64,000 bases of DNA. Source: Pseudomonadota bacterium. Lineage in GTDB: Bacteria > Pseudomonadota > Gammaproteobacteria > Burkholderiales > UBA9220. The stretch covers positions 1-64,000 of the forward strand of contig JAJZVC010000002.1 in the NCBI GenBank assembly GCA_021845865.1. The letters run 5' to 3'. Shown here piece by piece: positions 19,694 to 35,354 of this stretch; positions within the stretch are counted from its first letter, which is position 1; the number at the start of each line of letters is the position of its first letter. The notes under the pieces are model-generated. The model searched no databases. It was given only the letters and a program-made list of their open reading frames with translations, and had not been told where the DNA came from. The position numbers were made by a program, and so were the translations under genes.

Positions 19694-19706
19694 GGTCGGA
19701 CTGGGG

Positions 19707-19742
19707 TGCAAACCTGCAAACCCTGCAAACCTCGGTTTGCAG
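19707..19742. repeat. TGCAAACC iteron cluster with palindrome
   Basis: TGCAAACC occurs directly at 19,707, 19,715 and 19,724, and inverted (GGTTTGCA) at 19,734. The last direct copy and the inverted copy form a 9-bp perfect palindrome with a 2-base centre (19,723-19,742). This looks like a protein-binding array, either an operator for the methyltransferase genes downstream on the minus strand or a replication-type iteron set. Confidence 0.7.
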
Positions 19743-19960
19743 TTTGACGCTAGCGAAATGCCGCGCTCGCGCCCCCCGCATGGGATTTTGGAAAGGAAGG
19801 ACCCCTCTTGATTCGTGAGACCTTCACTGCCCGCACCGCTGTCCAGAAGATAGCTGAAATACTACCCCTGATCGGCCACCTTTGTTGCAGGGGGAAAAGT
19901 CGCGTTCTGCAACCGATGGCAGCACATGACAGCCCATGCACAACCAATCGCGCTGAAAGA
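19743..19960. other. Intergenic DNA with no supported gene
   Basis: Between the repeat cluster and the early operon stop I see no convincing gene. A 65-codon minus-strand frame is low in plausibility: it has no ribosome site and an erratic composition. A G/C-run followed by ATGGGATTTTGG and GGAAGGACCCC is notable but unassigned. Confidence 0.5.
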
Positions 19961-20350
19961 CTATCCCGCGACAGTGCGACCGTTCAGTTGATCCGCCACC
20001 GTCTGCAATGCCCGTTGCCAGCGCCGCCACGCCGTCGTCCGGTCGCAACCGAAGCGACGACAGATGTCCTTCCACTCGCGCTGCTTGGCACGCATCCAGA
20101 TCAGGTGGCGTTGCTCCTCCTCAAGCCATTGCACCCAGCGCATCGTCTCCAGCATCCGGTCGATGGCCTCGGGGGTTGGTGGCAGTGGTCGGTAGTGGTA
20201 GTCCCTGTCTGCGAACCCTTCCCACTCCTTGCGCACGAAGGCAGGCCAAACGCTGAAGTAACCCTGCACCCTGACCGGAGGCAGTCGCCGCCCCGTTTCG
20301 GTTGCCTCGGCAAATCGAGACGCCACGTCATCCATCGTCCATTCAGCCAT
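19961..20350 (-). CDS. DUF6362-like phage protein
   Basis: A 129-aa protein starting MAEWTMDDVASRFAEATETG. It contains RRLPPVRVQGYFSVWPAFVR, then WLEEEQRHLIWMRAKQREWKDICRRFGCDRTTAWRRWQRAL, which reads as a helix-turn-helix (WKDICRRFGCDRTTAWRRW). From memory it fits DUF6362. It is a candidate DNA-binding protein at the end of the early operon. The in-frame upstream region overlaps the previous gene; the ATG at 20,350 is preferred and gives an 8-base overlap with it. Confidence 0.8.
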   Translation of the reverse strand: MAEWTMDDVASRFAEATETGRRLPPVRVQGYFSVWPAFVRKEWEGFADRDYHYRPLPPTPEAIDRMLETMRWVQWLEEEQRHLIWMRAKQREWKDICRRFGCDRTTAWRRWQRALQTVADQLNGRTVAG

Positions 20351-20546
20351 GACGTTTCCCTCCGTACAGACGTTCCCCAATGCGTCGCACAATCTCCCGC
20401 TCGACGAAATCGAGCCTGGCATCCTGCTCGGACACCACGAGGATGTGCTGGTCGCGCCAGCCGGTTTGCTTGATCGTTTCCAGGTCGGTGGTCTGCGGTT
20501 GCAGGCGACCGAGAGGGCAGCGGTATTGCTGTGCCGGGATCTTCAC
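20343..20546 (-). CDS. Small hypothetical early protein
   Basis: A 67-aa protein with GTG start directly after a strong AGGAGGTGTGAC ribosome site. It begins MKIPAQQYRCPLGRLQPQTT and includes TIKQTGWRDQHILVVSEQDARLDFVEREIVRRIGERLYGG. The C-terminal helix is amphipathic. Both ends abut or overlap neighbours: 1 base after the RuvC-like gene stop and an 8-base overlap with the next gene. No family is recognised; similar small proteins occur in early operons of related prophages. Confidence 0.7.
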   Translation of the reverse strand: MKIPAQQYRCPLGRLQPQTTDLETIKQTGWRDQHILVVSEQDARLDFVEREIVRRIGERLYGGKRHG

Positions 20547-20547
20547 G

Positions 20548-21012
20548 TCACACCTCCTGCGTCTCAATGGCCCAGTGCAGCAATGCCAGGGCATCGGCTT
20601 CGTTGTCGTCGCTCGGGCTGTGACCACGCGATTGGACGGACGCGATCATCTCGTCCTTACCGGCATTACCTTTGCCGGTTGCGTGTTTCTTGATCGTGCC
20701 GACCGGGACCCCCTGATAGGGGATGTTCTGGTGCTCGCACCAGGCGGTGAGGTGGCCCATGAAACCGCCGTAAGCGTGTGCGGCATCCACGCCCGCGTGT
20801 CGCCGAACCTCTTCGAAGTACACCGCGTTGATGGAATGGCAGGCCGACAGCAGTTCGTTGAGCCAGCGCTTGAATCGCAGGAAGCGCATTCCGCCGCCCT
20901 CGAATCGCTGCGGCTTGAAACATTCCGTGCCGCTGATGATGCTGCCATCCAAGTGGTGCAGCGCCCACCCGGTTTTCGTGCCCAGATCGAGGGCCAATAT
21001 CGTCGTGTTCAT
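20548..21012 (-). CDS. RuvC-like Holliday junction resolvase
   Basis: A 154-aa RNase H-fold nuclease. The first acidic residue is Asp9 in ILALDLGTKTGWAL, the second acidic position is in AVYFEEVRRHAG, and the last pair is in SPSDDNEADALALLHW near the C-terminus, the RuvC catalytic order. KKHATGKGNAGKDEMI is the conserved basic segment of phage RuvC proteins. It resolves branched DNA before packaging. It lies after the primase gene, separated by 141 bases that contain a long inverted repeat. Confidence 0.88.
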   Translation of the reverse strand: MNTTILALDLGTKTGWALHHLDGSIISGTECFKPQRFEGGGMRFLRFKRWLNELLSACHSINAVYFEEVRRHAGVDAAHAYGGFMGHLTAWCEHQNIPYQGVPVGTIKKHATGKGNAGKDEMIASVQSRGHSPSDDNEADALALLHWAIETQEV

Positions 21013-21036
21013 GTGTTCAGTCCTTTTTCGCTCTCG

Positions 21037-21134
21037 GTCTGACGCATCTGACACGGAATGTCGAAACTCTCCATGAGGCGCACGCACGCGCACACGCGTA
21101 GGAGTTACGACGAACTGCGTCAGCTGCGTCAGAC
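21037..21134. repeat. Long inverted repeat between primase and resolvase genes
   Basis: Arms at 21,037-21,052 (GTCTGACGCATCTGAC) and 21,119-21,134 (GTCAGCTGCGTCAGAC) pair at 15 of 16 positions around a 66-base centre. The right arm itself contains CTGCGTCAG twice in tandem. It may be an origin-type structure, regulator site or RNA fold. Confidence 0.7.
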
Positions 21135-21153
21135 GGCGTGGTTTTCATAGGGG

Positions 21154-23436
21154 TCAGTTGTCTGCGTAGGGGGTGTAGGCGGGCGCGGGTGGGTTCTTGA
21201 GGCCGATCCCCTGAAATCCCCGCACCCCTACGCTGTTGCGCCATTTCTCAATTCCGCGCGTGATGAGCAGATCGGAAAACCGCCGCTGCGCACCGATGAA
21301 TTCGCCCGCCGCTTCGGCCCACTGCTTCCAGTCGTTGAATAGTTCGGCGGTCAGCGACTTGGCGTTGGGTTCACGCACGCAACGCTCCTCCAGCCAACGT
21401 CCCAGCGCATCCTCGGCCTCGAAATACTCCTCGGTCGCGTCGACCACCTGCTGTGGTGGATCGAGCCGCCCAAGGCGCTGCCAGTTCAGACAACCCTGCA
21501 CAGCCCAGGCCAGAATGCCGTCACGCTCTGCCAGCAATTTCTGCTGGAGGTGCTTGTCGCGGCGCTCGGGCGGCACGGTGATCGTGAACGGGATCAGGTG
21601 CAGTCGCCGTTTCATCGCTTCGTCGATGTTGCGGATGGCAGGCTTGTGGTTGCCTGCCACGAACAACTTGAACTGCGGGAAGAACTCGAAGAAGTCCTGG
21701 CGCATGAATCGTGCGGAAATCTTGTCGCCCCCGGTCAGATTCTTGACTTTGGATTCGGCCCAGCGTCGCCCCTGTTCGGTTTCGATGGCCGCCACGAAGC
21801 GTGCGCCGCGTAACCCAGCCATATCGGTCGGATGCCGGTCGGTGCGCGTCTCCATGAAGGTATCCATCGGCGCATTGGTCGCGTAGTCACCGAGGATCGT
21901 GGCCAGCGTGTTCACGAATACCGACTTGCCATTCGCGCCCGTCCCGTACAGGAAGAACAAGGCGTGCTCCCGGGTAGAGCCGGTGAGCGCGTAGCCAACC
22001 ACTCGTTGCAGATAGGCCTGCAGCTCCTTGTCGCCGCCTGTCACCTCATCGAGGAACTGCCGCCAGGTCGGACAATCGCCCCCGGGTGTGGCGGTGGTGA
22101 TCTTGGTGATGCGGTCGGCGCGTTCGTGCGGGCGCTGCCTGCCTGTCTTGAGGTCGACCACGCCGCCCAGGGTGTTGAGCAGCCAAGGATCGGCATCCCA
22201 CTCGTCGCTGGTGGCAGCGTGCCTGCGATCCGCCCGTGCCAGCCGTTCCACGCCGCCGACCGTGCCGGAACTGGCGAGCTTGGCAGCCACCTTGGGGTTC
22301 TCGGCGCGCACGGCGGTATGCCGGCAAACACTGCGGATCAGGTCGGTGGCCGCCAGCGTGTCCTCGGTACGCCAGCGATTGCCGTCCCACACCAGCCAAC
22401 GACCCCAGGTCGCAACATAGCGCCAGTCGCGGTGGTAGCGCCGCGTGAACGCCAGGGCCAATGCGTCCTCCGTACCCCAGACCGATTCGTCGCTACTGAC
22501 CACGGGCTCGGCGGCCACGGTGACGTCGTGCATCTGTAGGCGCGGGCCATGAGCGAGAAAGGCCGCGACGTCAAAGCCTTCGGCGATGGCGTCTGCCGCA
22601 TCCCATCCCTCAGCCGCTTCCTCGGGCGGGTACAGGATGTGGCAGGTCTTTGCGCCTGCCGACAGAATGGCCTGCGCTGCCTGCGTCGCGTACTCCCAGC
22701 CCGGCTTGTCGCGGTCAGGCCAGATCAGCACGGACTTGCCGGCCAGGGGCGACCAGTCGGTTTTCTCCACCGGGGCATTCGCGCCATGCATCGCGGTGGT
22801 GGTCACGATGCCCGCATCGATGAGTGCCTGCGCGCATTTTTCGCCTTCGACCAGCACCACTTGCGCGGCATTTGTCATCCCCGGCTGGTTGAAAAGCGGG
22901 CGTGGCTCGGGTGGAGCCATCTTGCGCCGCTTGGCATCCCATGGGCGGAACTCCTTCTTGCGACCGGGTGGGTCGTAGCGGTAAACGACCGCGATCAGCT
23001 TACCCGTGACGTCGAAGTAGTCCCACTTGGCAGTGGCCGGGCCAAGGTCGTCAACCGGAGCTTCCTTCTTGGCGCGGCGCAGAGGCACCGACCGAGAACG
23101 ACCGAGCAGATCGGCAGCCTCGTCGAGCACCCGGAGAAAGTCGGTGTGGACGTTGGCTCCGAGATAGGAAGCGATCAATGCGAAGATGTCGCCGCCATCG
23201 CCTGTGGCACGATCCGTCCAGAGTCCTGTCTTCTCGCCGTCGAGCACCACCTCGAGACTGTCGCCGGGACTGCCCAGCACGTCGCCGATCAGGAATTTGC
23301 CCTTGCGCTTCTTGCCTGCCGGGAACATCGTGGTCAGCACCGATTCCAGACGAGCGAGTAACTCGGCGCGCAGTTCCTCTCGTTCGGCGTCGCGATTGTT
23401 TTCGGTGGGTTGCGGGGTGTCGTTGAAGTCAAGCAT
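21154..23436 (-). CDS. P4-type primase-helicase (D5-like)
   Basis: A 760-aa replication protein. The N-terminal half carries a primase/Toprim-like region: WTDRATGDGGDIFALIASYLG, VVLVEGEKCAQALIDAG (residues 193-209) and LIWPDRDKPG (237-246). The C-terminal half is a D5/SF3-type helicase with Walker A GTGANGKS (498-505), then FVAAIETEQGRRWAESKVKNLTGGDKISARFMRQDFFEF and LFVAGNHKP. It would prime and unwind phage DNA. It overlaps the small HTH-like gene upstream by 8 bases. Confidence 0.93.
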   Translation of the reverse strand: MLDFNDTPQPTENNRDAEREELRAELLARLESVLTTMFPAGKKRKGKFLIGDVLGSPGDSLEVVLDGEKTGLWTDRATGDGGDIFALIASYLGANVHTDFLRVLDEAADLLGRSRSVPLRRAKKEAPVDDLGPATAKWDYFDVTGKLIAVVYRYDPPGRKKEFRPWDAKRRKMAPPEPRPLFNQPGMTNAAQVVLVEGEKCAQALIDAGIVTTTAMHGANAPVEKTDWSPLAGKSVLIWPDRDKPGWEYATQAAQAILSAGAKTCHILYPPEEAAEGWDAADAIAEGFDVAAFLAHGPRLQMHDVTVAAEPVVSSDESVWGTEDALALAFTRRYHRDWRYVATWGRWLVWDGNRWRTEDTLAATDLIRSVCRHTAVRAENPKVAAKLASSGTVGGVERLARADRRHAATSDEWDADPWLLNTLGGVVDLKTGRQRPHERADRITKITTATPGGDCPTWRQFLDEVTGGDKELQAYLQRVVGYALTGSTREHALFFLYGTGANGKSVFVNTLATILGDYATNAPMDTFMETRTDRHPTDMAGLRGARFVAAIETEQGRRWAESKVKNLTGGDKISARFMRQDFFEFFPQFKLFVAGNHKPAIRNIDEAMKRRLHLIPFTITVPPERRDKHLQQKLLAERDGILAWAVQGCLNWQRLGRLDPPQQVVDATEEYFEAEDALGRWLEERCVREPNAKSLTAELFNDWKQWAEAAGEFIGAQRRFSDLLITRGIEKWRNSVGVRGFQGIGLKNPPAPAYTPYADN

Positions 23437-23644
23437 CCGCAGTGCCTCCCTGCGTCGTCGCCCATGTGGAGAGTTCCGATATCCGAAAGCGCACCATCTG
23501 GCCGACCCGATAGTGCGGGATACGCTTCGAAGCACGGCTGCTGGGCTTGGTGAAGAAATGCAGCGGCAGAGCCAATGTGTGTGCGGCGTGCTGCGCGCCG
23601 ACCATCGGCTCCACTACCGGCGGTTGTAAATAGAAATGCCTCAT
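23429..23644 (-). CDS. Small DNA-binding-like protein
   Basis: A 71-aa protein starting MRHFYLQPPVVEPMVGAQHA. The C-terminal part (KRIPHYRVGQMVRFRISELSTWAT) matches the second half of AlpA/excisionase-type HTH domains (IPxxRVGxxVRFRxxDLxxWL), while the first half lacks the usual HTH helix. It is probably a divergent regulator or primase accessory. It overlaps the nuclease gene upstream by 4 bases and the primase gene downstream by 8 bases. Confidence 0.7.
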   Translation of the reverse strand: MRHFYLQPPVVEPMVGAQHAAHTLALPLHFFTKPSSRASKRIPHYRVGQMVRFRISELSTWATTQGGTADA

Positions 23645-24378
23645 GGGGTTGTCCTCCAGCAGCGGTCTTGCCATGCGCACATCCGGCATTCGAAGTGGGT
23701 CGGGTCAATGAAGGCGCGCGGCAGGAGTTCTCCCGCCTCGGTTGCCGTGATGACCTTCACTGCCCGATCCGACATGCGCTGGGCCAGGGCTGCATCAAAG
23801 GGCACGGCCTCGGTGTAGATTTCCATCGTGTCGGCGTTGAGCGCCGTGAAGATCGCCGGGTGCTCGTGCAATTCGAGATAGGCTTGATAGATCGCCATTT
23901 GCGCGGCATAGACGGGCTTGACCACGGCAAGGCGGTTCTTCTCCAGATCGCGCCAGGACTTGTTGCCCAGACACTTGTTCTCCCAGAGCGCGGGATAGGC
24001 GAAGCCCTCCGGGCCGCCGACGATGACGCCGTCGATGTGGCCCTGCAGGCGGTCGTCAGCCACCGAGAAACCGAACTGCTCGCCGTCGGGCTTGCGGGTG
24101 CGCAGGTCGAACCCCGCGTCCCGCAGCCACGCGACCATGCAGTCCTCCATGACGTGACCACGCTCGAAGATGCGCAGCATCCGCCCAGGGATATCACGCC
24201 CGTGGTCGTTGGGAGCCTTTGCGTACTCGAACTGCAGTGCGCGCTCGCAGGCCACGCCAAGACGCGAGGCCCCGAGGTACTGGCGTTCCGTCTGGCGGGC
24301 GCGAGCCTGCTGCATCCCGGCGTCGACCAGGGCGGTGATCTGGCCGGAGATGCTCGATGAGGAGTTGAAGTCGATCAT
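23641..24378 (-). CDS. PD-(D/E)XK nuclease of RecB/Cas4 type
   Basis: A 245-aa nuclease. Marks are LGASRLGVACERALQFEYAK at the N-terminus (Cys-containing RecB motif), HIDGVIVGG (active-site Asp), ALWENKCLGNKSWRDLEK (the E-x-K pair), VYAAQMAIYQAYLEL (QxxxY motif) and a late Cys set HFECRMCAWQDRCW, suggesting an Fe-S cluster as in Cas4/AddB-type nucleases. It probably processes DNA ends for recombination with the RecA-like ATPase and binding protein of the same operon. The start is MIDFNSSSS. Confidence 0.88.
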   Translation of the reverse strand: MIDFNSSSSISGQITALVDAGMQQARARQTERQYLGASRLGVACERALQFEYAKAPNDHGRDIPGRMLRIFERGHVMEDCMVAWLRDAGFDLRTRKPDGEQFGFSVADDRLQGHIDGVIVGGPEGFAYPALWENKCLGNKSWRDLEKNRLAVVKPVYAAQMAIYQAYLELHEHPAIFTALNADTMEIYTEAVPFDAALAQRMSDRAVKVITATEAGELLPRAFIDPTHFECRMCAWQDRCWRTTP

Positions 24379-24851
24379 GGCTTCGTCTCCCAAGGCAGGT
24401 CGTCCTCTAGGTCGGAGAAGGGGCTGGCCATCGGATCGGGCATCGGCGGCAAGCCCCGTACGGGCGGGAACTTGCTCTGCTCGTGGTGCGCGACCATCGC
24501 GTCCGACCAGCAGGTGACGATGGCGTCGATCACCTGCAGCGCCTCAGATTCGGAGTAGTCGCCGAGCGGCTTGGCAAAGCCGATCTCGCCCGCCGCCTCG
24601 CCGAAGGCCTTGAGGCACTGCTTCATCGCGGCAAGCTCGATATCAGACGGATCGATCATGGCGACCCCCTTGATATCGATTCGGCCTTCCTTGGCGCGCA
24701 GCCAGTTGCCGTAGAGCAGGTGGAAGGTGTCCTGGCAGCGGCGCGAGCAGAACACCCAGTCGATGGGGTAGCGCTGCGGGTCGGCTGTCTTGAATCGACC
24801 GTCCGAGTGCCCGTAGCCGCGTGCTTGACGTTTGCAGACCCAACATTTCAC
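24375..24851 (-). CDS. DUF6511-like zinc-finger protein
   Basis: A 158-aa protein starting MKCWVCKRQARGYGHSDGRF. The first Cys pair (CWVC) and a second (FCSRRCQD) form a small zinc-binding module, followed by TFHLLYGNW and a helical segment. I associate it from memory with DUF6511, found in early regions of related prophages. An internal ATG follows an in-frame ribosome-like site, so a shorter product is possible. It overlaps both neighbours by 4 bases. Confidence 0.8.
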   Translation of the reverse strand: MKCWVCKRQARGYGHSDGRFKTADPQRYPIDWVFCSRRCQDTFHLLYGNWLRAKEGRIDIKGVAMIDPSDIELAAMKQCLKAFGEAAGEIGFAKPLGDYSESEALQVIDAIVTCWSDAMVAHHEQSKFPPVRGLPPMPDPMASPFSDLEDDLPWETKP

Positions 24852-25705
24852 GCCTCCCCCTCGAACTCATCGAGCAGCAGGCCCAATTGCAGGGCAGCGC
24901 CAGCGAAGGCGGCCTCACAGCGGCGCTTGAAGTCAGGGTAGCTCATCGAACTGCGCGCGATGGCCGTGACCGCGTGAATCTGCGATTCCAGATGCGCGAG
25001 TCCTTGGTCGGACAACCACTGGTGGTGCTTCTGCGAGATACCCTTGCGGTTGCGGATCTCGCCCAGCAGATCCTCCGGCAACACCGGGCCGTACACCCAG
25101 CGCAGCGTGATCTGGCCGATGACGTGCGGCGGATTCTGCTCGTGCCCCTGATATCGCCAGTTGAAGAGGCGGTACAAAGCCCGGTAATAGTCGGGATGGA
25201 AGCGCCGCTCCCACGATGAGCAGGATTGCCGCAGCAGCTTGGAGATCAGTTCCTGCAGCGCGTCGGGTGCGCGGTGGTACTGGAACCCGGTCGCCTCGTC
25301 GATCAGCGCGGTTTCGCCGGTGACCGCCAGAGCCGACAGAATCTTGCGGCAGTTGGGGATGAGGTGCTGGCGCTTGGGATGCAGCTGTCCGAGCAATGCG
25401 GCATCGATGACGCCGAGTGCCACATCACCCACAATTCCCGCCGGAAAGAATGTCCCGGTCTGCCCCGAGGGTAGGCGTACCTTTGCGTACCCTTTTTTCT
25501 CGAACGCTGACAATGACTTAGCGGCAAATTCGCGGATCAAAGCGCCAATCTGCGTACCAGGGCTTTTTTCCCGCAGACCCAGAGCACGAGCCAGTTGGCG
25601 CTGGACGTAGCCGCGTTCGCCGTTGGTGAGCACAACAGCTTCGCAGTCGAGATCACCGAAATGCACGACGCCGTAGTGGCTGGCGGTGAGGACGGATGTG
25701 TTCAT
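24848..25705 (-). CDS. P63C-domain protein
   Basis: A 285-aa protein starting MNTSVLTASHYGVVHFGDLD. It contains GERGYVQRQLARALGLREKSPGTQIGALIREF near the N-terminus and a C-terminal P63C domain (SSWERRFHPDYYRALYRLFNW, PPHVIGQITLRWVYGPVLPEDLLGEIRNR, HLESQIHAVTAIARSS). P63C proteins are common in phages and plasmids; the function is uncertain, with a link to DNA recognition suggested. The start is ATG 25,705, using a GAGGAG six bases ahead, rather than the ATG two codons earlier that overlaps that site. Confidence 0.88.
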   Translation of the reverse strand: MNTSVLTASHYGVVHFGDLDCEAVVLTNGERGYVQRQLARALGLREKSPGTQIGALIREFAAKSLSAFEKKGYAKVRLPSGQTGTFFPAGIVGDVALGVIDAALLGQLHPKRQHLIPNCRKILSALAVTGETALIDEATGFQYHRAPDALQELISKLLRQSCSSWERRFHPDYYRALYRLFNWRYQGHEQNPPHVIGQITLRWVYGPVLPEDLLGEIRNRKGISQKHHQWLSDQGLAHLESQIHAVTAIARSSMSYPDFKRRCEAAFAGAALQLGLLLDEFEGEA

Positions 25706-25715
25706 GGCCATCTCC

Positions 25716-26342
25716 TCACTGTGCCCAGGACGGTTTGCCCGTCACGGGTGCGTGTTGTTGGGACGGTGCCGAGTAAGCAGGAGCCGCCTGCGCCGAAGCA
25801 CCGGAAGTACCACCATTGGTGGTTTTGGGCGGCACCCCCATCAACTTGGCGTAATCGGGGTGGTCGGGTTCGACCGCGACCTTGACCACGTTGCGGTCTT
25901 GGCCATTGCTGTCCTTCTCGATGTCCACGCGGGCCAGGAACTCCAGGCCATCCAGTTCGTGGAAGCCCTGGATGCGGCGCGCGGCGGTGGCCTGCGGGCT
26001 GTTGTCCTGCGGATGAACGTTGCGGGCACTGTTGAGCGCGGCGCGGATAAAACTGCGCCCCATCTGTCCCCAGGTCGGCCCCTTGCGGGAGTAGAGGCCG
26101 ATGTTCGACCACAGCTTGCGCTTGGCGTACTCGCCGCCGGTGATAACGAACTCGGCGGCGAGATAGACCGCTCCAGTGTCGAAGGACTCGGTGGCGTAGC
26201 CGCCCGTCCAGCCCTGACTCGCATCGTCATGGCCGCCCGGCTTGAAGGTCATGCGCATCGGAGCGATGACCCCTTTGGGGATCAGATCGAAGCCGGACTG
26301 TTGGGGATCAGCATCTTGAAAATCAAAATAGTTGGACGACAT
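25716..26342 (-). CDS. Probable phage single-stranded DNA-binding partner protein
   Basis: A 208-aa protein starting MSSNYFDFQDADPQQSGFDL. It has an OB-fold-like core (GVIAPMRMTFKPGG, YLAAEFVITGGEYAKRKLWSNIGLYS, LEFLARVDIEKDSNGQDRNVVKVAVEP) and a disordered tail rich in Ala, Pro, Gln and Ser. Such a fold and tail, with the RecA-like ATPase gene five bases upstream, suggest a DUF669-like ssDNA-binding protein. This is inference from pattern and context; it is not a classical SSB by sequence. Confidence 0.7.
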   Translation of the reverse strand: MSSNYFDFQDADPQQSGFDLIPKGVIAPMRMTFKPGGHDDASQGWTGGYATESFDTGAVYLAAEFVITGGEYAKRKLWSNIGLYSRKGPTWGQMGRSFIRAALNSARNVHPQDNSPQATAARRIQGFHELDGLEFLARVDIEKDSNGQDRNVVKVAVEPDHPDYAKLMGVPPKTTNGGTSGASAQAAPAYSAPSQQHAPVTGKPSWAQ

Positions 26343-26347
26343 GGCAA

Positions 26348-27181
26348 TTACTCCTTGGATTCGGTGGTGTTCGGGGTCGCGGACGTGGCCGATGCGCACT
26401 TCGCGATCAGCGCGCCGAGATGCGGCGGTTCCAGCAGGTCGAGACGACCGCTGCGGTCTTTGGCCGGGAAGCCGTAGGGATTGACGGTGTGCGTGACGAA
26501 GGCGCGGTAGGCGCTGCCGTCCTCGGCCTTAATCTCGGCCAGCGTCACGACCTCGTCGACGATGCCGGGCAGTTCGAGACTGGTCTTGCTGCCCTCGATC
26601 TGCGGCACGAACACCTTGCGGTTGTAGTCGTCGAGCCGTTCGTCGAGGATGGCGACGAACACGACGTTCTTGCCGCGCGCGTGTTGCAGGTGGGTCAAGG
26701 CGCTGACCATCTCCTGACCGAGCAGGCCGTAAGCACCGCGCATGTCGGGCTTGCCAGTTCGGTCGCTGACCGCACCCGGTTGCGTCTTGCACCACGCGAA
26801 GCATTGGCGCGAGAGCTGTGTGATCGAGTCGAGGAAGAAGGTCTGGTAGCGGTCGAGCTGCGCGGGATCGCCGAACTTCTCGACGACGTGGTCGTAGTGC
26901 GCCTGCGAGAACGCGGCCTCCGGCGGCAGCGACTTGTCGGGGCCGGCGAGGAACACGAAGAAGTCGCGCGACTCCGGCCACGAGGCCGGGCGAATGGTGT
27001 CGCCGGGCCAGTCGGCTACGGCCAGGTCGCCCGCCTCGATGTCGAGGAACAGCGTGGTGGCCGGGTCGAGATCTTTAAGCCGGGTGGTCTTGCCGATGCC
27101 GGACTTACCGAGCATCAGGAGCTTCACGCCTTTGCGTTCTGCCATCCGCTCGATGGCGGATACGATGGGGAGCTTTTTCAT
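26348..27181 (-). CDS. RecA-like ATPase (Sak4/AAA_24 type)
   Basis: A 277-aa P-loop ATPase. Walker A is LMLGKSGIGKTT (residues 22-33), Walker B is FFLDSITQLS, and NVVFVAILDERLDD follows. The pattern matches AAA_24/Sak4 single-strand annealing or RecA-like proteins that work with a phage SSB; a functional pair with the downstream gene is likely. It would promote recombination and repair of phage DNA. It overlaps the gene upstream by 4 bases (ATGA). Confidence 0.88.
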   Translation of the reverse strand: MKKLPIVSAIERMAERKGVKLLMLGKSGIGKTTRLKDLDPATTLFLDIEAGDLAVADWPGDTIRPASWPESRDFFVFLAGPDKSLPPEAAFSQAHYDHVVEKFGDPAQLDRYQTFFLDSITQLSRQCFAWCKTQPGAVSDRTGKPDMRGAYGLLGQEMVSALTHLQHARGKNVVFVAILDERLDDYNRKVFVPQIEGSKTSLELPGIVDEVVTLAEIKAEDGSAYRAFVTHTVNPYGFPAKDRSGRLDLLEPPHLGALIAKCASATSATPNTTESKE

Positions 27182-27660
27182 GCCGCCTCCCCGTCGATGG
27201 TCAGAGTGATGGTCGGCTTGCCTTCCTCGACGGTGCGCGCGGCGGCGAACTGCTGTTGCAGCGTCTGTGGCCAGTTCGTGTACCGGGACTCGGACACAGA
27301 CAACTTGACGTCGAGGTAGTCCTCGACCTTGTCGCCAGAGGCCACGATGCGCTCGGCAATCTCCTTCAGAATCGTCTGGTTCCAGTTGACCTTCTTTGGC
27401 AACTCGAACTTGACGTGTAACGGGCCGTCGCTGATGTGGGCGGTACCAAAATCGCGGCCAGATTCCCGCAGTGCGACGCGGGCCAGCTCGCCGAAACGCT
27501 GCGCCTTGGCGGCATCCAGCTTGGTACGCAGTTGTTTGAGGTAGACGATGGCCTCGTCGACGTGGCCCTCAGACTCCACAAGGTCACGAATCGGCAAAGA
27601 CACCAGTTGGGCGACCGTCATGCTGGCGAGGTCTGCTGGATAGTGGGTAAGGTCTTTCAT
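27178..27660 (-). CDS. Hypothetical early protein
   Basis: A 160-aa protein starting MKDLTHYPADLASMTVAQLV. The first half is helical (SEGHVDEAIVYLKQLRTKLDAAKAQRFG). The second half (PLHVKFELPKKVNWNQTILKEIAERIVASG) is a recognisable conserved phage segment without assigned function. It ends just inside the ATPase gene. The start is chosen at 27,660 because the upstream ATG lies inside the ribosome site; the same GAGGAGATGGCCATG context precedes the P63C gene. Confidence 0.75.
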   Translation of the reverse strand: MKDLTHYPADLASMTVAQLVSLPIRDLVESEGHVDEAIVYLKQLRTKLDAAKAQRFGELARVALRESGRDFGTAHISDGPLHVKFELPKKVNWNQTILKEIAERIVASGDKVEDYLDVKLSVSESRYTNWPQTLQQQFAAARTVEEGKPTITLTIDGEAA

Positions 27661-27670
27661 GGCCATCTCC

Positions 27671-27982
27671 TCAACCCGGTACACGTTCGGAGGTCGAGAC
27701 GTAGAGGTGGCGTTTCTCGTAATCGAGCACGCCGTTCTCGCCGTCCAAGGGATAGGCCACCTTCTTCGAGAACTTATTGAAGACTGGGCCCCGGCCAAGA
27801 CCGCGCCAGCGCGTGAGCGTCTTGGGGGACATGCCCCAGCGGCTGGCCAGCTCGACTTCGCTCAGGAAGCGGCGCTCGGACAGCGCCGGAGACTGGGGGG
27901 ACGGCGTCGAGTTGAACCCGACGCCGGAATTGAGGCTCGGTTTGCCACCGAAGCCAGGGGACATTGCCATTGAATAGGCCAT
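27671..27982 (-). CDS. HTH DNA-binding protein (AlpA/MerR-like)
   Basis: A 103-aa protein, first gene of the early operon. After a disordered Gly/Ser/Pro-rich N-terminal 35 residues, RRFLSEVELASRWGMSPKTLTRWRGLGRGPVFNKFSKKVAYPLDGENGVLDYE is a typical excisionase/AlpA HTH and wing. Such proteins act as excisionases or early activators. Four in-frame ATG codons occur near the start; 27,982 fits the AAAGGAG site best. Its own leader (27,983-28,141) carries the tandem palindromes, so autoregulation is plausible. Confidence 0.78.
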   Translation of the reverse strand: MAYSMAMSPGFGGKPSLNSGVGFNSTPSPQSPALSERRFLSEVELASRWGMSPKTLTRWRGLGRGPVFNKFSKKVAYPLDGENGVLDYEKRHLYVSTSERVPG

Positions 27983-28024
27983 TGCCATGCTCCTTTCCCG
28001 TTCAGGGATTGGGGCGCGAGCGGT

Positions 28025-28078
28025 GGCCAGTCCTGTACTGGCCGTTGATGCCGTTTCACGCCTTCATCGGGGAAGGCG
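28025..28078. repeat. Two hairpins in the early operon leader
   Basis: GGCCAGT-CCTGT-ACTGGCC (28,025-28,043) and CGCCTTC-ATCGGG-GAAGGCG (28,059-28,078) are perfect 7-bp stems between the tandem palindromes and the first early gene. In the mRNA they would fold upstream of the ribosome site. Confidence 0.6.
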
Positions 28079-28115
28079 CTACATCCGGCGTAGCAACAGC
28101 TACATTTGGCGTAGC
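28078..28115. promoter_or_regulatory. Tandem palindromic operator
   Basis: Two 17-bp copies, GCTACATCCGGCGTAGC at 28,078-28,094 and GCTACATTTGGCGTAGC at 28,099-28,115, differ at two central bases. Each is a dyad (GCTAC...GTAGC). Their centres are 21 bp apart, two helical turns, so bound dimers would face the same side. They sit just upstream of the early operon and 26 bases after an HTH gene. Confidence 0.75.
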
Positions 28116-28141
28116 GGAAAACTTTTTTTCTCGGCCCTCCG

Positions 28142-28618
28142 CTAGCCGAGTGACGCGATCAACCGGCGTTGCTCATCCCAGTCGAAGGGCACCTTGGCCC
28201 GCAGAATGGCCTCCAGCGACACAGCCCGAGGAAGTGTTCCGTTGTAGGCGGCCTGGACGATGTCCGGGGCGAGAAGCGCCAGCCGCAGCATTTCGTTGAT
28301 CGTGGCGCGGTGGATGCCCTCGCGCTCGGCGATTTCCATCGTTGTGGCCACCGCCCCGGTATCGAGCAGTTGCTGCCAGTAGATGCCGCGCCCCATTGCC
28401 TTGAGCAGGGGCTGATCCTGCTCGGGGGTGAGTACGGGCGACGCCGTGACGGCAACCGGCTGGCTGACTCCGTCCGGGGCGACGATCACCTTCTTGATGC
28501 CCCGCTTCTTGAAGTGGAAAGGCACAAAGGTGGTGATCCGCACGCCGCCGCTTTCCAGTGGATGGCGGCGCTCGTGGGGCAACCCGTCGCCGATCAGCTT
28601 TTTGGATGAGCGATTCAC
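28142..28618 (-). CDS. HTH protein of the recombinase module
   Basis: A 158-aa protein with GTG start overlapping the recombinase stop (GTGA). The middle is a helix-turn-helix: TTMEIAEREGIHRATINEMLRLALLAPDIVQAAYNG. The N-terminal part (ITTFVPFHFKKRGIKKVIV) is a conserved feature of proteins found directly after serine recombinases with DUF2924 in prophages. It may regulate the recombinase or bind the palindromes 26 bases downstream. No catalytic residues are seen. Confidence 0.8.
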   Translation of the reverse strand: MNRSSKKLIGDGLPHERRHPLESGGVRITTFVPFHFKKRGIKKVIVAPDGVSQPVAVTASPVLTPEQDQPLLKAMGRGIYWQQLLDTGAVATTMEIAEREGIHRATINEMLRLALLAPDIVQAAYNGTLPRAVSLEAILRAKVPFDWDEQRRLIASLG

Positions 28619-29982
28619 GACGCCACCTCGATTTCCAACAGCTCTCCACCGATGGTGTCCGGACTCAGTTCCCCTGCCAGTTCTCGCCATCCTGATTCGC
28701 GCCAGACAATGTCAACGCCGTCGGAGAGCAACTGGACCCGCTCAATCAGCAGATTAACCAGGCGCACCTGCTCGGCAGGGAACAGTTGCCGCCAGACGTC
28801 GCCGAGGCGGCGCATGGCCAACACGGTGGTCGGTTCGTCGATCTCCGGGTATTTGTCGCAGACGGTATTCCAGACCCCTTGGATGCTCTCCGGTGACTGG
28901 AGCGCGCCCACCAGCAGGTTCACCACCACTTCCTCGATCTGGTCGGCCGGAATCATCCCGGTAGCGCTGCTGCGGTAGCCGTACCGCCTGTCCGCCTTCG
29001 GGATGTAGTAGCGGTATTTCTTGCCCGAGGGTTTCTTGCTGTAGGTGATGTGGTACTTGCCGCCGTCAGGCCCGTACATCAACCCGCGCAGCAAGGCATC
29101 GGTTTTGTGGCGGGTCTGGGTCTTGCCCATCCGCTCGTGCGCATCCTCGGCCAGGATGGCCTGCACCCGATCCCACAATTGCCTGCTGATGATCGGCTCG
29201 TGCTGGCCCGCGAAAACTGTACCCTTGTGGCAGATCTCTCCGACGTAGATCGGATTGCGCAGCAGCTTGGAGATGTACTTCTTGTCCATCGGCGTTCCGT
29301 TACGCACGCCGCCGTTCTTCAAACGGTTGGGCTTGGTGGTGATGCCTTCGAGGGAGATTTCCCGGACGATGTCGGTGATAGATCGCAGCTCGGTGAATCG
29401 CGTAAAAATGCGCCTGATGATCTCGGCGTCCTTGTCCTCGATGATGAGCTTGCGGTCTTTGACCTCGTAGCCCAGAGGCGTGTAGCCGCCCATCCACAGG
29501 CCCTTGCGCTTGCTGGCCGCAATCTTGTCGCGGATGCGCTCGCCCGTGACCTCGCGCTCAAACTGGGCGAAGGACAGCAGGATGTTGAGCATCAGCCGCC
29601 CCATCGAGGTGGTGGTATTGAACTGCTGCGTGACCGAAACGAACGACACCTTGTGCCGCTCGAAAACTTCGATCAGCCTGGAGAAGTCGGTCAGGCTGCG
29701 CGTCAGGCGGTCGATCTTGTAGACCACCACGATATCGATCTGGTCGGCGGCGATGTCGGCCATCAGGCGCTTCAAGGCCGGGCGCTCCATGTTGCCGCCG
29801 GAGTAGCCGCCGTCGTCGTAGTCGTCGCCCACCGGCATCCAGCCCTCAGCGCGCTGGCTCACGATGTAGGCTTGGCCCGCCTCGCGCTGGGCATCGAGGG
29901 AATTGAAGGACTGGTCCAGACGCTCGTCCGTGGAAACGCGTGTGTAGACGGCGCAGCGCTTTTTGGTCACGACGGCGTTCAT
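28615..29982 (-). CDS. Serine recombinase (phage integrase)
   Basis: A 455-aa serine recombinase. The catalytic domain starts AVYTRVSTDER with Ser17 as nucleophile, then DDGGYSGGNMERPALKRLM, IDIVVVYKIDRLTRSLTDF and NILLSFAQFEREVTGERIRDKI. The recombinase domain (PLGYEVKDRKL...YISKLLRNPIYVGEI) follows, with a C-terminal extension that lacks an obvious Cys4 zinc ribbon. It likely integrates and excises this element. The start ATG overlaps the DUF2924 gene stop. The length is at the short end for large serine integrases. Confidence 0.93.
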   Translation of the reverse strand: MNAVVTKKRCAVYTRVSTDERLDQSFNSLDAQREAGQAYIVSQRAEGWMPVGDDYDDGGYSGGNMERPALKRLMADIAADQIDIVVVYKIDRLTRSLTDFSRLIEVFERHKVSFVSVTQQFNTTTSMGRLMLNILLSFAQFEREVTGERIRDKIAASKRKGLWMGGYTPLGYEVKDRKLIIEDKDAEIIRRIFTRFTELRSITDIVREISLEGITTKPNRLKNGGVRNGTPMDKKYISKLLRNPIYVGEICHKGTVFAGQHEPIISRQLWDRVQAILAEDAHERMGKTQTRHKTDALLRGLMYGPDGGKYHITYSKKPSGKKYRYYIPKADRRYGYRSSATGMIPADQIEEVVVNLLVGALQSPESIQGVWNTVCDKYPEIDEPTTVLAMRRLGDVWRQLFPAEQVRLVNLLIERVQLLSDGVDIVWRESGWRELAGELSPDTIGGELLEIEVAS

Positions 29983-30440
29983 TTCGCACCTCGCTTCGAT
30001 TTGCCCTTGATGATTCCGAAGAACAGAGGCCCAGACCATTGGGTGCCGGTGATGTGGCGGGCTACGGCAGACAGGCTCTTGTAACGGCGGCCCTCGTACT
30101 CGAAGGTGCCATCAGCCTGCGCCGTGACGCGGTGCTCGCGGCTGTCGAACTCCCGTACCAGCACCGTGCCGGGCACGACCTGGACCTCGACGCCACGCTG
30201 CGTTTTGATGTTGGATTGGGCTTCGCCGATCCGCGCCATCTGGGTCTGCACGACCAGCTTCGTGCTCAGTGCTTCCTCCTGAATCTTGTAGGCGACGCGG
30301 CCTTCGACGTAGGCGCGGTTGTTGTGTGGTGGGCGGCGCGGAAAATACTTGTCCCAAAGCGCCCACAGATCGTTCATGGCCAGCCTGGGCAGATTGGCAA
30401 TTTGCGCTGCCAGGGACGGGCCGGTTATCGGTATATTCAT
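29979..30440 (-). CDS. DUF2924 protein
   Basis: A 153-aa basic protein starting MNIPITGPSLAAQIANLPRL. The pattern LWALWDKYFPRRPPHNNRAYVEGRVAYKIQEEA and GTVLVREFDSREHRVTAQADGTFEYEGRRYKSLSAVARHITGTQWSGPLFFGI is DUF2924, nearly always next to serine recombinases in prophages; probably a DNA-binding recombination accessory. ATG 30,440 is used; it overlaps the stop of the small upstream gene by ATGA. Confidence 0.92.
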   Translation of the reverse strand: MNIPITGPSLAAQIANLPRLAMNDLWALWDKYFPRRPPHNNRAYVEGRVAYKIQEEALSTKLVVQTQMARIGEAQSNIKTQRGVEVQVVPGTVLVREFDSREHRVTAQADGTFEYEGRRYKSLSAVARHITGTQWSGPLFFGIIKGKSKRGAK

Positions 30441-30625
30441 TTGCAAACTCCTTCTGTAGAGGGGTTTGTATGAACGCGCTCGGGTGGCGAGAAGCCAAGT
30501 GGAATATCGCTGTCTCGTGGCCGGCTGGAGTGCAGGCGGGCAATGGCGGCGGCGATAATTTCTGCGGCCTCACGCGCCCGCTGGCGGGGAGACATCAATT
30601 CGGGAAGAGTTCGTTCGACGGTCAT
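30437..30625 (-). CDS. Small protein opening the recombinase module
   Basis: A 62-aa protein starting MTVERTLPELMSPRQRAREA. It has a helix RAREAAEIIAAAIARLHSSR followed by a short variable tail. Its stop overlaps the DUF2924 start (ATGA), which supports it as a real gene; similar small helical proteins precede DUF2924 in related prophages as I recall. The 3-prime part contains copy 5 of the conserved upstream element. Confidence 0.7.
   Translation of the reverse strand: MTVERTLPELMSPRQRAREAAEIIAAAIARLHSSRPRDSDIPLGFSPPERVHTNPSTEGVCK
30470..30499 (-). repeat. Conserved upstream element, copy 5 (minus strand)
   Basis: On the minus strand CTTGGCTTC, N6 TCGCCA, CCCGAGCGCGTTCAT. The outer 9 and inner 11 bases match the four plus-strand copies exactly with the same spacing. 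The first base lies 59 bases upstream of the DUF2924 start codon, inside the 3-prime end of the preceding small gene. Confidence 0.8.
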
Positions 30626-30713
30626 TTCGGCATCCAGTAAAGTAATCAGACCGTCACGAAGAATATGCGCGCAAGGCGGTCGGAGTATCCCGTTTGGGAG
30701 CGCATCAGCAGGG

Positions 30714-31247
30714 GTGAGCGAGATTACGAATAAATTCTTGATGGCATTTCTGGTCGCCCTCGCGGCGAGCAGTGCAGGTGCCGAAACAATCACGGGCAAG
30801 GTGGTCGGCGTGTCCGATGGCGACACGATCACCGTGCTGGACGCCGAAAGGACTCAGTACAAGATCCGGGTGGCTGGGATTGACGCGCCAGAAAAGGCGC
30901 AGGCCTTCGGTCAGCGTTCCAAAGAGTCAATGTCTGCCCTGGTGTTCGGCAAAGACGTCGATGTGGTGACGAGCAAACGCGACCGCTACGGACGGCACAT
31001 CGGCAAGGTGATGGTCGCGGAGCCGTCTTGCAGCGCGCGCAACTGCCCCAAGACTCTGGACGCGGGGCTGGCCCAGCTCACCGTCGGCATGGCGTGGTGG
31101 TACCGCCAGTACGCCCGTGAGCAGTCCGCTGAGGATGCCGGGGCCTACGAATTTTCCGAGCAAGAGGCTCGGAGCCGTAGCGTCGGGTTGTGGCGCGATC
31201 CAAACCCAATTCCGCCGTGGGACTGGCGACACACATCCCGCCGTTAG
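30714..31247 (+). CDS. Secreted thermonuclease (SNase family)
   Basis: A 177-aa nuclease with an N-terminal signal peptide (KFLMAFLVALAASSAGA, cleavage expected after Ala-Gly-Ala). The SNase core shows VVGVSDGDTITVLD, YKIRVAGIDAPEKAQAFGQ, KRDRYGRHIGKVMV and a late ARSRSVGLW, which are the metal-binding Asp, catalytic Arg and Glu regions. It is likely periplasmic or extracellular. GTG 30,714 gives a positively charged n-region and is preferred; ATG 30,741 is an alternative. It is divergent from the recombinase module. Confidence 0.9.
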   Translation: MSEITNKFLMAFLVALAASSAGAETITGKVVGVSDGDTITVLDAERTQYKIRVAGIDAPEKAQAFGQRSKESMSALVFGKDVDVVTSKRDRYGRHIGKVMVAEPSCSARNCPKTLDAGLAQLTVGMAWWYRQYAREQSAEDAGAYEFSEQEARSRSVGLWRDPNPIPPWDWRHTSRR

Positions 31248-31282: not shown

Positions 31283-31311
31283 TTGACCTGATGTTCATCA
31301 GGTCATATATT
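31283..31311 (+). promoter_or_regulatory. Sigma70 promoter with operator palindrome in its spacer
   Basis: The -35 TTGACC (31,283-31,288), 17-bp spacer and -10 TATATT (31,306-31,311) form a near-consensus promoter. A perfect 10-bp inverted repeat with 2-base centre (TGACCTGATG / CATCAGGTCA, 31,284-31,305) fills the spacer and part of the -35, so a dimer bound there would block RNA polymerase. Confidence 0.85.
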
Positions 31312-31336: not shown

Positions 31337-31570
31337 ATGAGCAAGCAAAAGACCGAAGGCATTACGGAGCCGCAGGCAAGAACGTTGAGAGCGATCTGCC
31401 AAATCCTCGATAGCACGGGCCTGCCGCCCACCGTCAAGGAACTGGCCGAGGCGCTAGGAATCAGCCACGCCAGCGCTCACGAACAGATCGCGCAGTTGGT
31501 ACGCAAGGGGTATTTGAGGAAAGAAGAAAAAAAGGCACGGAGCATCGTCGTCGTCAAACGCATTGATTGA
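31337..31570 (+). CDS. LexA-type winged-helix regulator without protease domain
   Basis: A 77-aa protein consisting of a LexA-like DNA-binding domain only: EPQARTLRAICQILDSTGLPPTVKELAEALGISHASAHEQIAQLVRKGYLRKEEKKARSIVV. No Ser-Lys autopeptidase part follows, so RecA-stimulated self-cleavage is not expected. It has a GAGGAG site. The palindrome in its promoter is the likely autoregulatory operator. The candidate defence cassette starts 39 bases downstream in the same direction with no terminator between, so it is probably co-regulated. Confidence 0.85.
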   Translation: MSKQKTEGITEPQARTLRAICQILDSTGLPPTVKELAEALGISHASAHEQIAQLVRKGYLRKEEKKARSIVVVKRID

Positions 31571-32398: not shown

Positions 32399-34502
32399 GC
32401 GATACATCATTTGCGGCAACGCTTCGGCCAATGGCATCAGCGAAGACCCCAAGCGCGACTTGCGACTACGACTTTCTGGCAAGGACGGCCACGGAAACAT
32501 CACGCTGCGCATCGAGGACATCCACAGCAAGATGTTCCGCAATGTCCCGACGCAATTCCACGATCTGCTGGAACTTGCCACCTACGTCTACAGTGCCGAC
32601 CAAGCGATCAAGCGCGGTGCGGACGACGTCGACAGCTTTGGCGATGGCTGGCGGCGAGACATGCACTTCGTTGTACCGGTGCGAAATCTGGATTTCTGGC
32701 GAAAACCCGAAGTCCTCGACACACTACGGTCGACCTTGGGCTTTTTGTCCGATGACAATTACCAGTTCGATTTCGTCCCACTGGACCAGGATCACACGAT
32801 CCAGGAGTACCTCGAATTCAACGATGCCCAGCAGATGTTCGGCCTTCCCGAACAAGTGGTGATGTTTTCTGGTGGCTTGGATTCATTGGCTGGCGCGATT
32901 GAAGAAGTCCTGACACAGAAACGTCGGGTGGTGCTGGTTACGCACAAGTCGACGCCGAAACTCAACAACCGGCATCGCAACATGGAAACGCTGCTGGCGG
33001 CGAAGGCTGGGGACAATGCGCCTCACCATATCGGCGTCCGAGTTCACAAGACCAAGGGGCTAAATCACGAGTACACCCAGCGGAGCCGATCCTTCCTGTA
33101 CATGTCGATTGGTGCAACCATTGCCAAGATGCTCGGACTCAAGAGCGTGCGCTTCTATGAAAACGGAGTCATCAGTCTGAATCTTCCGGTGTGCGCGCAG
33201 GTCGCCGGTGGCCGGGCAACGCGCACAACGCACCCCAGGGTTATGAAAGGCTTTCAGGACATCATCTCTTTGGTAGCCGGTGAGCCGTTCACCATCGAGA
33301 ACCCGTTCATCTGGAAAACCAAGGCCGATGTCGTTGAGGTCATCACCAAGGCGGGATGTGCCGATCTGATCGCTCATTCGATGACGTGCACGCACACTTG
33401 GGAGATGACGAACGAGCACACCCATTGCGGCGGTTGCTCGCAGTGCATCGACCGACGCTTCGCTGTCGTCGCCGCAAAGGCTGATCAGTACGATCCGGCT
33501 GCCCATTACAAAATCGACGTCTTCACCCAAAGCCGCGACAAGGGTGACGACAAGATCATGGCAGCCGCCTATCTTGAGCGTGCCAACCAAGTGAAGTCGC
33601 TGACCGACGTTTCGCAGTTTCTTGCCAGCTATGCCGAGGTCAATCGAGTTTTTCGATACCTTGATGGCAGCACTGCCCAATCAGCCCAGCGCGTTTTTGA
33701 CCTCTACAAGCGACACGCTGCTGAGGTCACTGGAGCGCTTGATGAGTTGCTCCTGCGTAATCGCGCCGCGATTCGAGAGCGATCCCTCCCCGGCGACTGC
33801 TTGCTGCGAACAGTCTATGAGTCGGGTTCGGTGATCTCGGTGCCCGCCGTTGCATCGGCTGAAAAGCGACCGGACAACATTTTCCGGAAACGCGGTGGTG
33901 TTTGGGAGGCGAGTTTCCTCGGGCGCAATGTGATCTTGCTTCAGGGCGTGGACAAGGGGGCTGAATATATCAACCTGTTGCTGGCCTACCCGGAACGAGA
34001 GACCTCGGTTTTTGAGATCGTGTGCGGCTGCGCACTTGGCGCAGTTGGGCCGGCGACCAATACCGGGCTGGAGCACGACGACATTGAAGAAGGATTCCAA
34101 GTCACTTCAGGGGCTCCGCTGGGTGACGCTGGTGTTGTAGCCGACCGGACAGCCGTCAATCAATATCGCGGGAGATACCAGGAGCTAGTCACGGAGAAGG
34201 CCGAGGCGGAAGAAGAAGGTGACCACGAGCGTCTCGAGGAAATTCTGATCGAAATGGCTCAACTCGCCGCTGCCCTCACTGGTGCCGTTGGAAAAGGCGG
34301 CAAGCTCAGAAAGGTTGCGGACAAGCGGAAAAACGTCCGTGACGCGTTCCGCAATGCAGTCAACCGCGCGATCACATACATCGGCAAGTACGACAAGGCA
34401 TTGGCCGAGCACCTGAAGGACTCGATCAAGCACGGCAACGAGGCGGTCTACCGGCCCGAAATTGCTGTCGCGTGGGCGGTTCGGCCTGTCACGAACGAAT
34501 AG
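32388..34502 (+). CDS. QueC-like PP-loop protein with C-terminal winged-helix/coiled-coil domain
   Basis: A 704-aa protein. Residues 1-155 are an N-terminal domain. Residues 156-375 are a QueC-type PP-loop ATPase: VVMFSGGLDS (161-166 is SGGLDS), ENGVISLNLP (258-267), ENPFIWKTKADVV (304-316) and a zinc set Cys334, Cys347, Cys350, Cys353 (CGGCSQC). Housekeeping QueC is only about 230 aa. Residues 497-704 form a separate domain (IFRKRGGVWEASF, KGAEYINLLLAYPERE, then a coiled coil YRGRYQEL...GDHERLEE). QatC and Cap9 are the nearest known concepts; this is probably a defence enzyme, not queuosine synthesis. Confidence 0.85.
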   Translation: MQDKRYIICGNASANGISEDPKRDLRLRLSGKDGHGNITLRIEDIHSKMFRNVPTQFHDLLELATYVYSADQAIKRGADDVDSFGDGWRRDMHFVVPVRNLDFWRKPEVLDTLRSTLGFLSDDNYQFDFVPLDQDHTIQEYLEFNDAQQMFGLPEQVVMFSGGLDSLAGAIEEVLTQKRRVVLVTHKSTPKLNNRHRNMETLLAAKAGDNAPHHIGVRVHKTKGLNHEYTQRSRSFLYMSIGATIAKMLGLKSVRFYENGVISLNLPVCAQVAGGRATRTTHPRVMKGFQDIISLVAGEPFTIENPFIWKTKADVVEVITKAGCADLIAHSMTCTHTWEMTNEHTHCGGCSQCIDRRFAVVAAKADQYDPAAHYKIDVFTQSRDKGDDKIMAAAYLERANQVKSLTDVSQFLASYAEVNRVFRYLDGSTAQSAQRVFDLYKRHAAEVTGALDELLLRNRAAIRERSLPGDCLLRTVYESGSVISVPAVASAEKRPDNIFRKRGGVWEASFLGRNVILLQGVDKGAEYINLLLAYPERETSVFEIVCGCALGAVGPATNTGLEHDDIEEGFQVTSGAPLGDAGVVADRTAVNQYRGRYQELVTEKAEAEEEGDHERLEEILIEMAQLAAALTGAVGKGGKLRKVADKRKNVRDAFRNAVNRAITYIGKYDKALAEHLKDSIKHGNEAVYRPEIAVAWAVRPVTNE

Positions 34503-34514: not shown

Positions 34515-34994
34515 ATGACTCATCAAACCTTTTATCGAGCAGACAAACGCATATTCTGCGATGGCGATGTGGTGGTGTCGGCCGGAGAGTTTCTTGGGAA
34601 AAATCCAGATGGCTCCCTTGATGTGGAAAAAGTGTTTGAAGAAAAACGTCCGAAGAACCTCCCGCCGAGGGCAGATTGTCTTTATGTATTTTCGGCGATC
34701 AGCGATGCGAAGAAGCATTGGTCAAAAATGACTGGCGGGAAGCTGTATGAAGTCGCCGTAGCTGATGTGGACGTACTTCTCAGGGCTGATATGACCCTGG
34801 TTGATTTGGCATTCAGAAGTCGTGAAGTGCCTGGGGACGTCGAAGCGTGTGCTGATCGCTATTGGCGGGGCGAATGCAGTGAAAGGCCAGTCATAGAAGT
34901 GCTTGTACGAAACGCAACCGTACTGAGCGTGCTATCGAACGATGAGGCTGAGCGACGGGCATATTTTCGGAGTTGGGCAATAACCAGCACTTAA
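34515..34994 (+). CDS. DUF2441-like, possible ADP-ribosyltransferase-fold protein
   Basis: A 159-aa protein starting MTHQTFYRADKRIFCDGDVV. From memory it resembles DUF2441: FYRADKR near the N-terminus, PPRADCLYVFSAISDAKKHW in the middle, GGKLYEVAV after it, and YWRG later, a layout like ADP-ribosyltransferase folds (Arg/His, Tyr-x-x-Ser, Glu). It follows the QueC-like gene by 12 bases and is probably in the same operon. It could be the effector of the cassette. AT-richer than the host. No strong ribosome site. Confidence 0.6.
   Translation: MTHQTFYRADKRIFCDGDVVVSAGEFLGKNPDGSLDVEKVFEEKRPKNLPPRADCLYVFSAISDAKKHWSKMTGGKLYEVAVADVDVLLRADMTLVDLAFRSREVPGDVEACADRYWRGECSERPVIEVLVRNATVLSVLSNDEAERRAYFRSWAITST

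Positions 34995-35278: not shown

Positions 35279-35354
<76 letters not shown>

Follow-up and report, generated by a model that had tools for sequence, protein, structure and literature searches.

A prophage-borne QatBC-like gene pair with exchangeable C-terminal tails on its QatC-like protein

Analysis of the first 64,000 nucleotides of contig JAJZVC010000002.1 of a Burkholderiales metagenome-assembled genome (GCA_021845865.1; this stretch is the window below) identified a QatBC-like gene pair placed between the serine integrase and the tRNA-Ala(CGC) gene of a siphoprophage (Table 1). The pair comprises the B gene, which encodes a QatB-like partner, and the C gene, which encodes a QatC-like protein with a C-terminal tail. 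It is preceded by a small LexA-type gene, R, with which it forms an R-B-C operon. The prophage body is cut off by the contig start, the host link of the pair is made by this one contig, and the related viral contigs are fragments. An earlier note on this DNA had drawn attention to the tail as an unusual fusion to a QueC-like enzyme; the QatB-like partner, the R gene with its palindrome, the location in a prophage and the fact that the tail can be exchanged are new beyond that note.

The QatC-like core and its QatB-like partner

The QatC-like part of the C protein comprises residues 55-397. It is recovered by the PADLOC QatC model with an expectation value (E) of 9.5e-54, scores 210.3 bits against NCBIfam QatC (NF041925), which is under the cut-off of 280, and is matched by the solved QatC 9vlk over residues 59-363 only (E 1.6e-28). 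The motifs SGGLDS (161-166), ENG (258-260) and TRTTHP (278-283), the cysteines C334, C347, C350 and C353, and also P(x)4TK are found in the protein. Further, comparison with published versions (PMC13279940, PMC13329287) places the QatC active-site signature, i.e., SGGxDS, T278 and T280 within TRTTHP, RxRxxxF/Y, ExG, the zinc cysteines and RR, both in the C protein and in the alignment of its relatives. In the published system, the QatC ATP site and T278/T280, as well as Gly2 of QatB, are essential, and QatB with QatC suffices for protection against lambda-vir (PMC13279940); further context on QatBC is available in PMC13329287 and PMC11996544.

The B gene overlaps the C gene by 11 nucleotides, and its product, which begins MGHVRLGLLPRSKAW, belongs to a family with the N-terminal motif MGHxRLGxLPRTxxW. 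In an alignment of 32 sequences (relatives 29-77% identical to the window B, with starts chosen with the MG motif in mind), Met1 and Gly2 are invariant, while His3, Gly7, Leu9, Pro10 and Trp15 are nearly so; thus, the Met-Gly, proline and tryptophan of the QatB type are all present (G2, P10, W15). The predicted model of B (predicted local distance difference test, pLDDT, 86) is all-helical. Among the matches listed by Foldseek for this model, QatB 9y01_A is the best both by probability (0.80) and by template-modelling score (0.53 by target), yet with an E of 0.89, and a profile comparison by hhalign against 18 QatB sequences gives a probability of 44% (E 2e-4). A sequence search of the PDB with B returned no match to QatB, and no CD-NTase match to B was recovered in Pfam, NCBIfam or PADLOC.

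A search of IMG/VR with a profile of the core returned 150 relatives, of which 80 were fetched, and the QatBC-like family as a whole comprises 100+ loci. The B gene is present in nearly all fetched relatives whose upstream region exists. At 100 loci neither qatA (KAP NTPase) nor qatD (TatD nuclease) was detected in phmmer searches of the open reading frames with two QatA and two QatD queries, which recovered the genes at 4/4 canonical loci used as positive controls. In the phylogenetic tree the family forms a clade apart from canonical QatC with full support. A separate, divergent QatC-like group (L052, L053, L054) of 462-465 residues has SxGxDS without TRTTHP and falls outside both the canonical and the MGH types.

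These features allow a comparison with the known systems. The pair resembles QatABCD (PDB 9vlk, 9zee, 9y01) in its QueC-like core with SGGxDS, TRTTHP, ENG and zinc cysteines, and in the helical partner encoded just upstream with an N-terminal Met-Gly and conserved proline and tryptophan. It differs in being prophage-borne without qatA or qatD, in the ~200 extra C-terminal residues of C, in a B that starts with MGHxRLG and has a short tail as opposed to the MGTS start of QatB, in its score below the NCBIfam cut-off and in having its own LexA-type repressor candidate. With the Cap9/CdnD pair of type IV CBASS (cyclic-oligonucleotide-based anti-phage signalling system), in which the N-terminus is deazaguanylated, it shares an enzyme of the QueC family with the N-terminal glycine of a partner as its presumed target; however, B is no CD-NTase, the deazaguanine-recognizing Tyr/Asp are Thr/Thr in the C protein, and there is no Cap10. 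In the open-licence PubMed Central (PMC) literature we found no account of a QatBC pair that stands alone and carries fused tails.

A C-terminal tail of several classes

The region singled out by the earlier note corresponds exactly to codons 497-704 of the 704-codon C frame, and every motif quoted from it is present. It is no integral part of all QatC-like proteins, as the solved QatC chains, at 465-466 residues, match the core only. The tail is conserved at 33 genome loci when used as the query, with full-length matches 55-78% identical, and is also found in >50 viral contigs. B, the core and the tail are under purifying selection, with ratios of non-synonymous to synonymous substitution rates of 0.04-0.23 (0.06-0.23 for the tail against six relatives). 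No family in Pfam, NCBIfam, PADLOC or PHROGs matches the tail above threshold; DUF7260, DUF7553 and dodecin were rejected as identities, being sub-threshold matches in domain libraries.

The likeness proposed in the earlier note between this region and the KGLRYLARLL C-termini of large ATPases and regulators was borne out by both tblastn and profile-profile comparison. Searches of plasmids with the tail by tblastn retrieved a Streptomyces AAA ATPase (E 6e-6), which carries NTPase and TPR regions, and proteins from Nonomuraea (7e-5), Embleya (2e-3) and Streptomyces KN37 (8e-3), which are large and of similar look. An hhalign comparison of 30 tails with only four actinobacterial C-terminal sequences aligns 182 columns, i.e., the whole domain, with 99.9% probability (E 7.7e-34). 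The resemblance extends over the entire length, including the coiled coil and the terminal HL...I.TG...Y.P; in the actinobacterial proteins the domain follows the NTPase and TPR regions, whereas here it follows the QatC core. Residues 497-704 are a domain of their own, and a homologue of the one at the C-terminus of STAND/AAA-TPR ATPases from actinobacteria. A further match to the window-type tail (E 7e-10) is a gammaproteobacterial protein of 1125 residues (L078; G432 C317).

In the AlphaFold model of the tail (pLDDT 69; predicted template-modelling score 0.51), three predicted strands (~498-518) are followed by two helices (522-533, 541-552), a long helical hairpin (~587-633), a long third helix (646-668) and a terminal strand. 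With the hairpin regarded as an insert, this topology agrees at modest confidence with the winged helix plus coiled coil proposed in the earlier note, and indicates, as opposed to proving, the winged-helix class. The order of strands and helices, and the N-terminal half, are those of the OmpR/PhoB/SARP winged helices (Trans_reg_C), from which the tail differs by the inserted hairpin, with no significant match in sequence or fold. Window-type tails show strong conservation of the region that corresponds to the recognition helix.

The C-termini of the family fall into at least five classes: the window type (73 proteins), a GYRL-ending type (13), an OmpR-type winged helix (5), a fourth class (2) and singletons. 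The two OmpR-type tails that were scanned match Pfam Trans_reg_C with E of 1.1e-10 and 3.1e-9. A member on a Leptospira noguchii plasmid (L039, 5207-7851), the partner of which begins MGHERLGILPKTRSW, has a DpnII-MboI nuclease as its tail (E 8e-11). The core tree requires several changes of the tail label, with starred branches forcing at least two for the window type; therefore, the tails have been replaced during the history of the family.

Operon, putative operator and prophage slot

R, a gene unlisted until then, was found by aligning the upstream DNA and encodes a 77-residue LexA-type DNA-binding domain lacking the peptidase domain. Almost all of the window-type loci that were checked have this gene 5' of B. 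Its putative promoter is spanned by a perfect palindrome, TGACCTGATGTTCATCAGGTCA. There is a single copy of this palindrome in the host genome (2.69 Mb) and likewise in each of 14 related phage contigs, and its arms are retained from Burkholderiales to Desulfosarcina. On account of this single occurrence, the palindrome appears to be a private autoregulatory site of the R-B-C operon, to which R probably binds. Footprinting upstream of B at loci lacking R showed no clear operator.

Table 1. Features of the prophage, the R-B-C operon and adjacent genes in the window
Feature	Position	Strand	Basis
Siphoviral prophage body (tape measure, major tail, capsid, portal, terminase, primase, Sak4, Cas4-type exonuclease)	1..30039	-	PHROGs
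Large serine recombinase (phage integrase)	28615..30039	-	Pfam Resolvase/Recombinase; PHROG 95 integrase, E 1.6e-109
DUF2924 gene adjoining the integrase	29979..30440	-	Pfam, E 1.4e-40; PHROG 11806
Staphylococcal-nuclease-like gene adjoining the operon	30543..31247	+	Pfam SNase, E 2.9e-18
Putative sigma70-like promoter, TTGACC-N17-TATATT	31283..31311	+	Sequence inspection; conserved in alignment
Putative palindromic operator, TGACCTGATG-TT-CATCAGGTCA	31284..31305	.	Single site in genome and 14 contigs
R gene, first of the operon	31337..31570	+	Pfam LexA_DNA_bind, E 2.4e-14
B gene, QatB-like partner, 262 residues	31610..32398	+	Conserved N-terminal motif, Foldseek, hhalign
C gene, QatC-like protein, 704 residues	32388..34502	+	PADLOC QatC, PDB 9vlk match, alignment
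C-terminal domain of C, residues 497-704	33876..34499	+	hhalign, AlphaFold topology, weak Foldseek matches
Small gene 3' of C, PHROG 5663	34515..34994	+	E 8.7e-12
tRNA-Ala(CGC), probable attachment side of the prophage	35279..35354	-	ARAGORN

The SNase-like neighbour is present at 29 of ~100 loci on the basis of neighbour clustering. The pair of other phages is flanked by the integrase on one side and by a block of sigma70-region-2 and replication genes on the other. In L156 (1344-4826) a Type ISP restriction enzyme (E 1.4e-67) is found upstream of the pair with one small gene between them, and in L126 (1935-5201) the pair is immediately 3' of an N6-methylase-like gene (E 4e-4, slightly short of the cut-off).

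Relatives with the same neighbours and no QatBC-like pair encode unrelated proteins in this slot, the C-termini of which are tails shared with the QatC-like proteins: that of L295 has a window-type tail (E 7e-41), that of L239 the tail seen in L134 (E 2e-34) and that of L237 an OmpR-type tail (E 1e-9), with further cases in L236, L255, L243 and L264. The tail can thus be viewed as the constant of the slot, with QatBC as one of several partners. In L295 (3032-5637) and L239 (3190-5398) these serine-integrase phages have a two-gene module, the second protein of which bears the tail, with no Pfam family above cut-off. When the slot proteins of L295, L239, L237, L244, L283 and L222 were searched with PADLOC, none proved a convincing match to a known defence protein. 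In the close integrase relatives L222 (3586-6938) and L223 (3324-6676) the pair is replaced by a HELGH metallopeptidase-like protein and two others; an identification of the former as ImmA was rejected, given that it has no Pfam match and only a weak match to capP.

Possible functions of the pair and its tail

The reading that we favour, with a probability of about 0.5, is that the operon encodes an autorepressed, prophage-borne N-terminal-modification complex of the QatBC type, which is tethered to DNA by its tail and used in superinfection defence. The QatC core would bind B and, by analogy to QatBC and Cap9, C might use ATP to conjugate a small group, possibly 7-deazaguanine-like, to Gly2 of B after removal of the methionine. 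The winged helix with its coiled-coil insert could tether the complex to DNA, perhaps substituting for the DNA-binding QatA, while R, acting on the private palindrome across the promoter, would keep the output of the operon low; defence could then set in once the tail encounters DNA that is foreign or replicating. In favour of such a complex are the QatC core with its ATP loop, TRTTHP and zinc cysteines, the conserved MG start of B with P10 and W15, and the QatB-like predicted fold of B; the prophage context, the lack of qatA and qatD at the 100 loci, and the exchange of tails both on the core tree and among unrelated slot proteins are counted on the same side. A tail of the DNA-binding type is suggested by the homology to the STAND-ATPase C-terminus, the winged-helix topology, and the Trans_reg_C and nuclease domains in sister tails. 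Defence as the outcome is favoured because the operator is private, L126 and L156 have neighbours of the restriction-modification type, one of the tails is a nuclease, and QatBC has a published role in defence. A private repressor-operator arrangement of this kind resembles self-regulated defence operons.

Several observations weigh against this reading. The tail model finds AfsR, PhoP and PhoB at the top and BaeR, RpaA and CovR within the top 16 of its Foldseek matches, none of which is significant (best E 0.06). The hhalign comparison of window-type with OmpR-type tails is weak (12.6%), and rises to just 21% (control 8%) upon excision of the coiled coil, which is suggestive but not evidence. 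The first predicted helix of B spans residues 13-23 and leaves a tail of ~12 residues, as opposed to the 30-90 disordered residues of QatB. Further, the reaction of QatC is itself unresolved, and the residues that recognize 7-carboxy-7-deazaguanine (CDG) are replaced in it (PMC13279940). No canonical QueD (PF01242) was detected in the host genome, which is 91% complete; this point is not used here, in part on account of that incompleteness. Finally, the pair is present with every close integrase relative having at least ~4 kb of relevant flank, which is less typical of optional defence cargo.

This last pattern would sit better with a role, nearly as probable, in the control of lysogeny or immunity, wherein the tail would bind prophage operators, the QatC/B pair would be an interchangeable input, and modification of B would switch the regulator. 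The constancy of the tail across the slot is the main argument for such a role, as proteins in phages without the pair (L295, L239, L236, L243, L255, L264) end in the same tails; in addition, the slot in many phages lies between integrase and sigma/replication genes, and OmpR-type tails are classic transcription-factor domains. HTH_3 domains of the cI-like type exceed the cut-off in only 2/23 contigs with the pair as compared with 7/21 without it, but these numbers are low and come from fragments of contigs, and we do not accept them as proof of a missing repressor. However, the one conserved operator that was detected belongs to R-B-C, at one per phage or genome, and its obvious reader is R rather than C. 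The strong conservation of the recognition-helix region in window-type tails is also unlike that of immunity specificity determinants, and the Leptospira member has a nuclease tail.

We regard it as unlikely that the tail is instead a protein-protein or oligomerization coiled-coil module shared with STAND ATPases and no DNA binder. The long coiled-coil hairpin in the model and the weak winged-helix fold match are consistent with such a module, and winged helices of STAND proteins can be structural; nevertheless, the sister tails at the same position include Trans_reg_C and restriction-endonuclease domains, both of which act on DNA. It is very improbable that C is an ordinary QueC of the queuosine pathway with a long tail. 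Pfam QueC (PF06508) does match residues 285-359 (37.3 bits against a gathering score of 22), but the canonical QueC motifs YxQxHxxE, VPxRN and YPDC are not found in the C protein, which has the QatC-specific signature in their place, with TRTTHP replacing the substrate motif (as defined in PMC13329287). Further, the host genome has a separate QueC elsewhere (C47, E 1e-77), and C has an obligate B partner. Published QatC does not complement a queC deletion in E. coli (PMC13329287).

Returning to the DNA-tethered QatBC-type complex, the combination of features suggests a device for immunity or control, carried by a phage, in which the tagging of a protein is coupled to the recognition of DNA; the tail may have a role in recognition or regulation, as the earlier note had surmised. 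A broader and somewhat doubtful proposal is that the exchangeable winged-helix tails form a common chassis at one phage slot, on which a DNA-tethered QatC tagging the N-terminus of B might directly switch immunity or lysogeny.

The family bears on questions of the 2026 literature, namely what the activity of QatC is, what triggers it and why a C-terminal extension is needed. It represents a QatBC that naturally consists of two genes and lacks both QatA and QatD, with tails recognizable as an OmpR winged helix, a DpnII-type nuclease or a STAND-ATPase tail; these DNA-acting domains directly implicate DNA as the target of sensing or of action. The variety of tails makes the question of the QatC trigger testable through tail swaps or deletions, and the presence of the same tails on unrelated slot proteins reveals a general modular site in serine-integrase phages.
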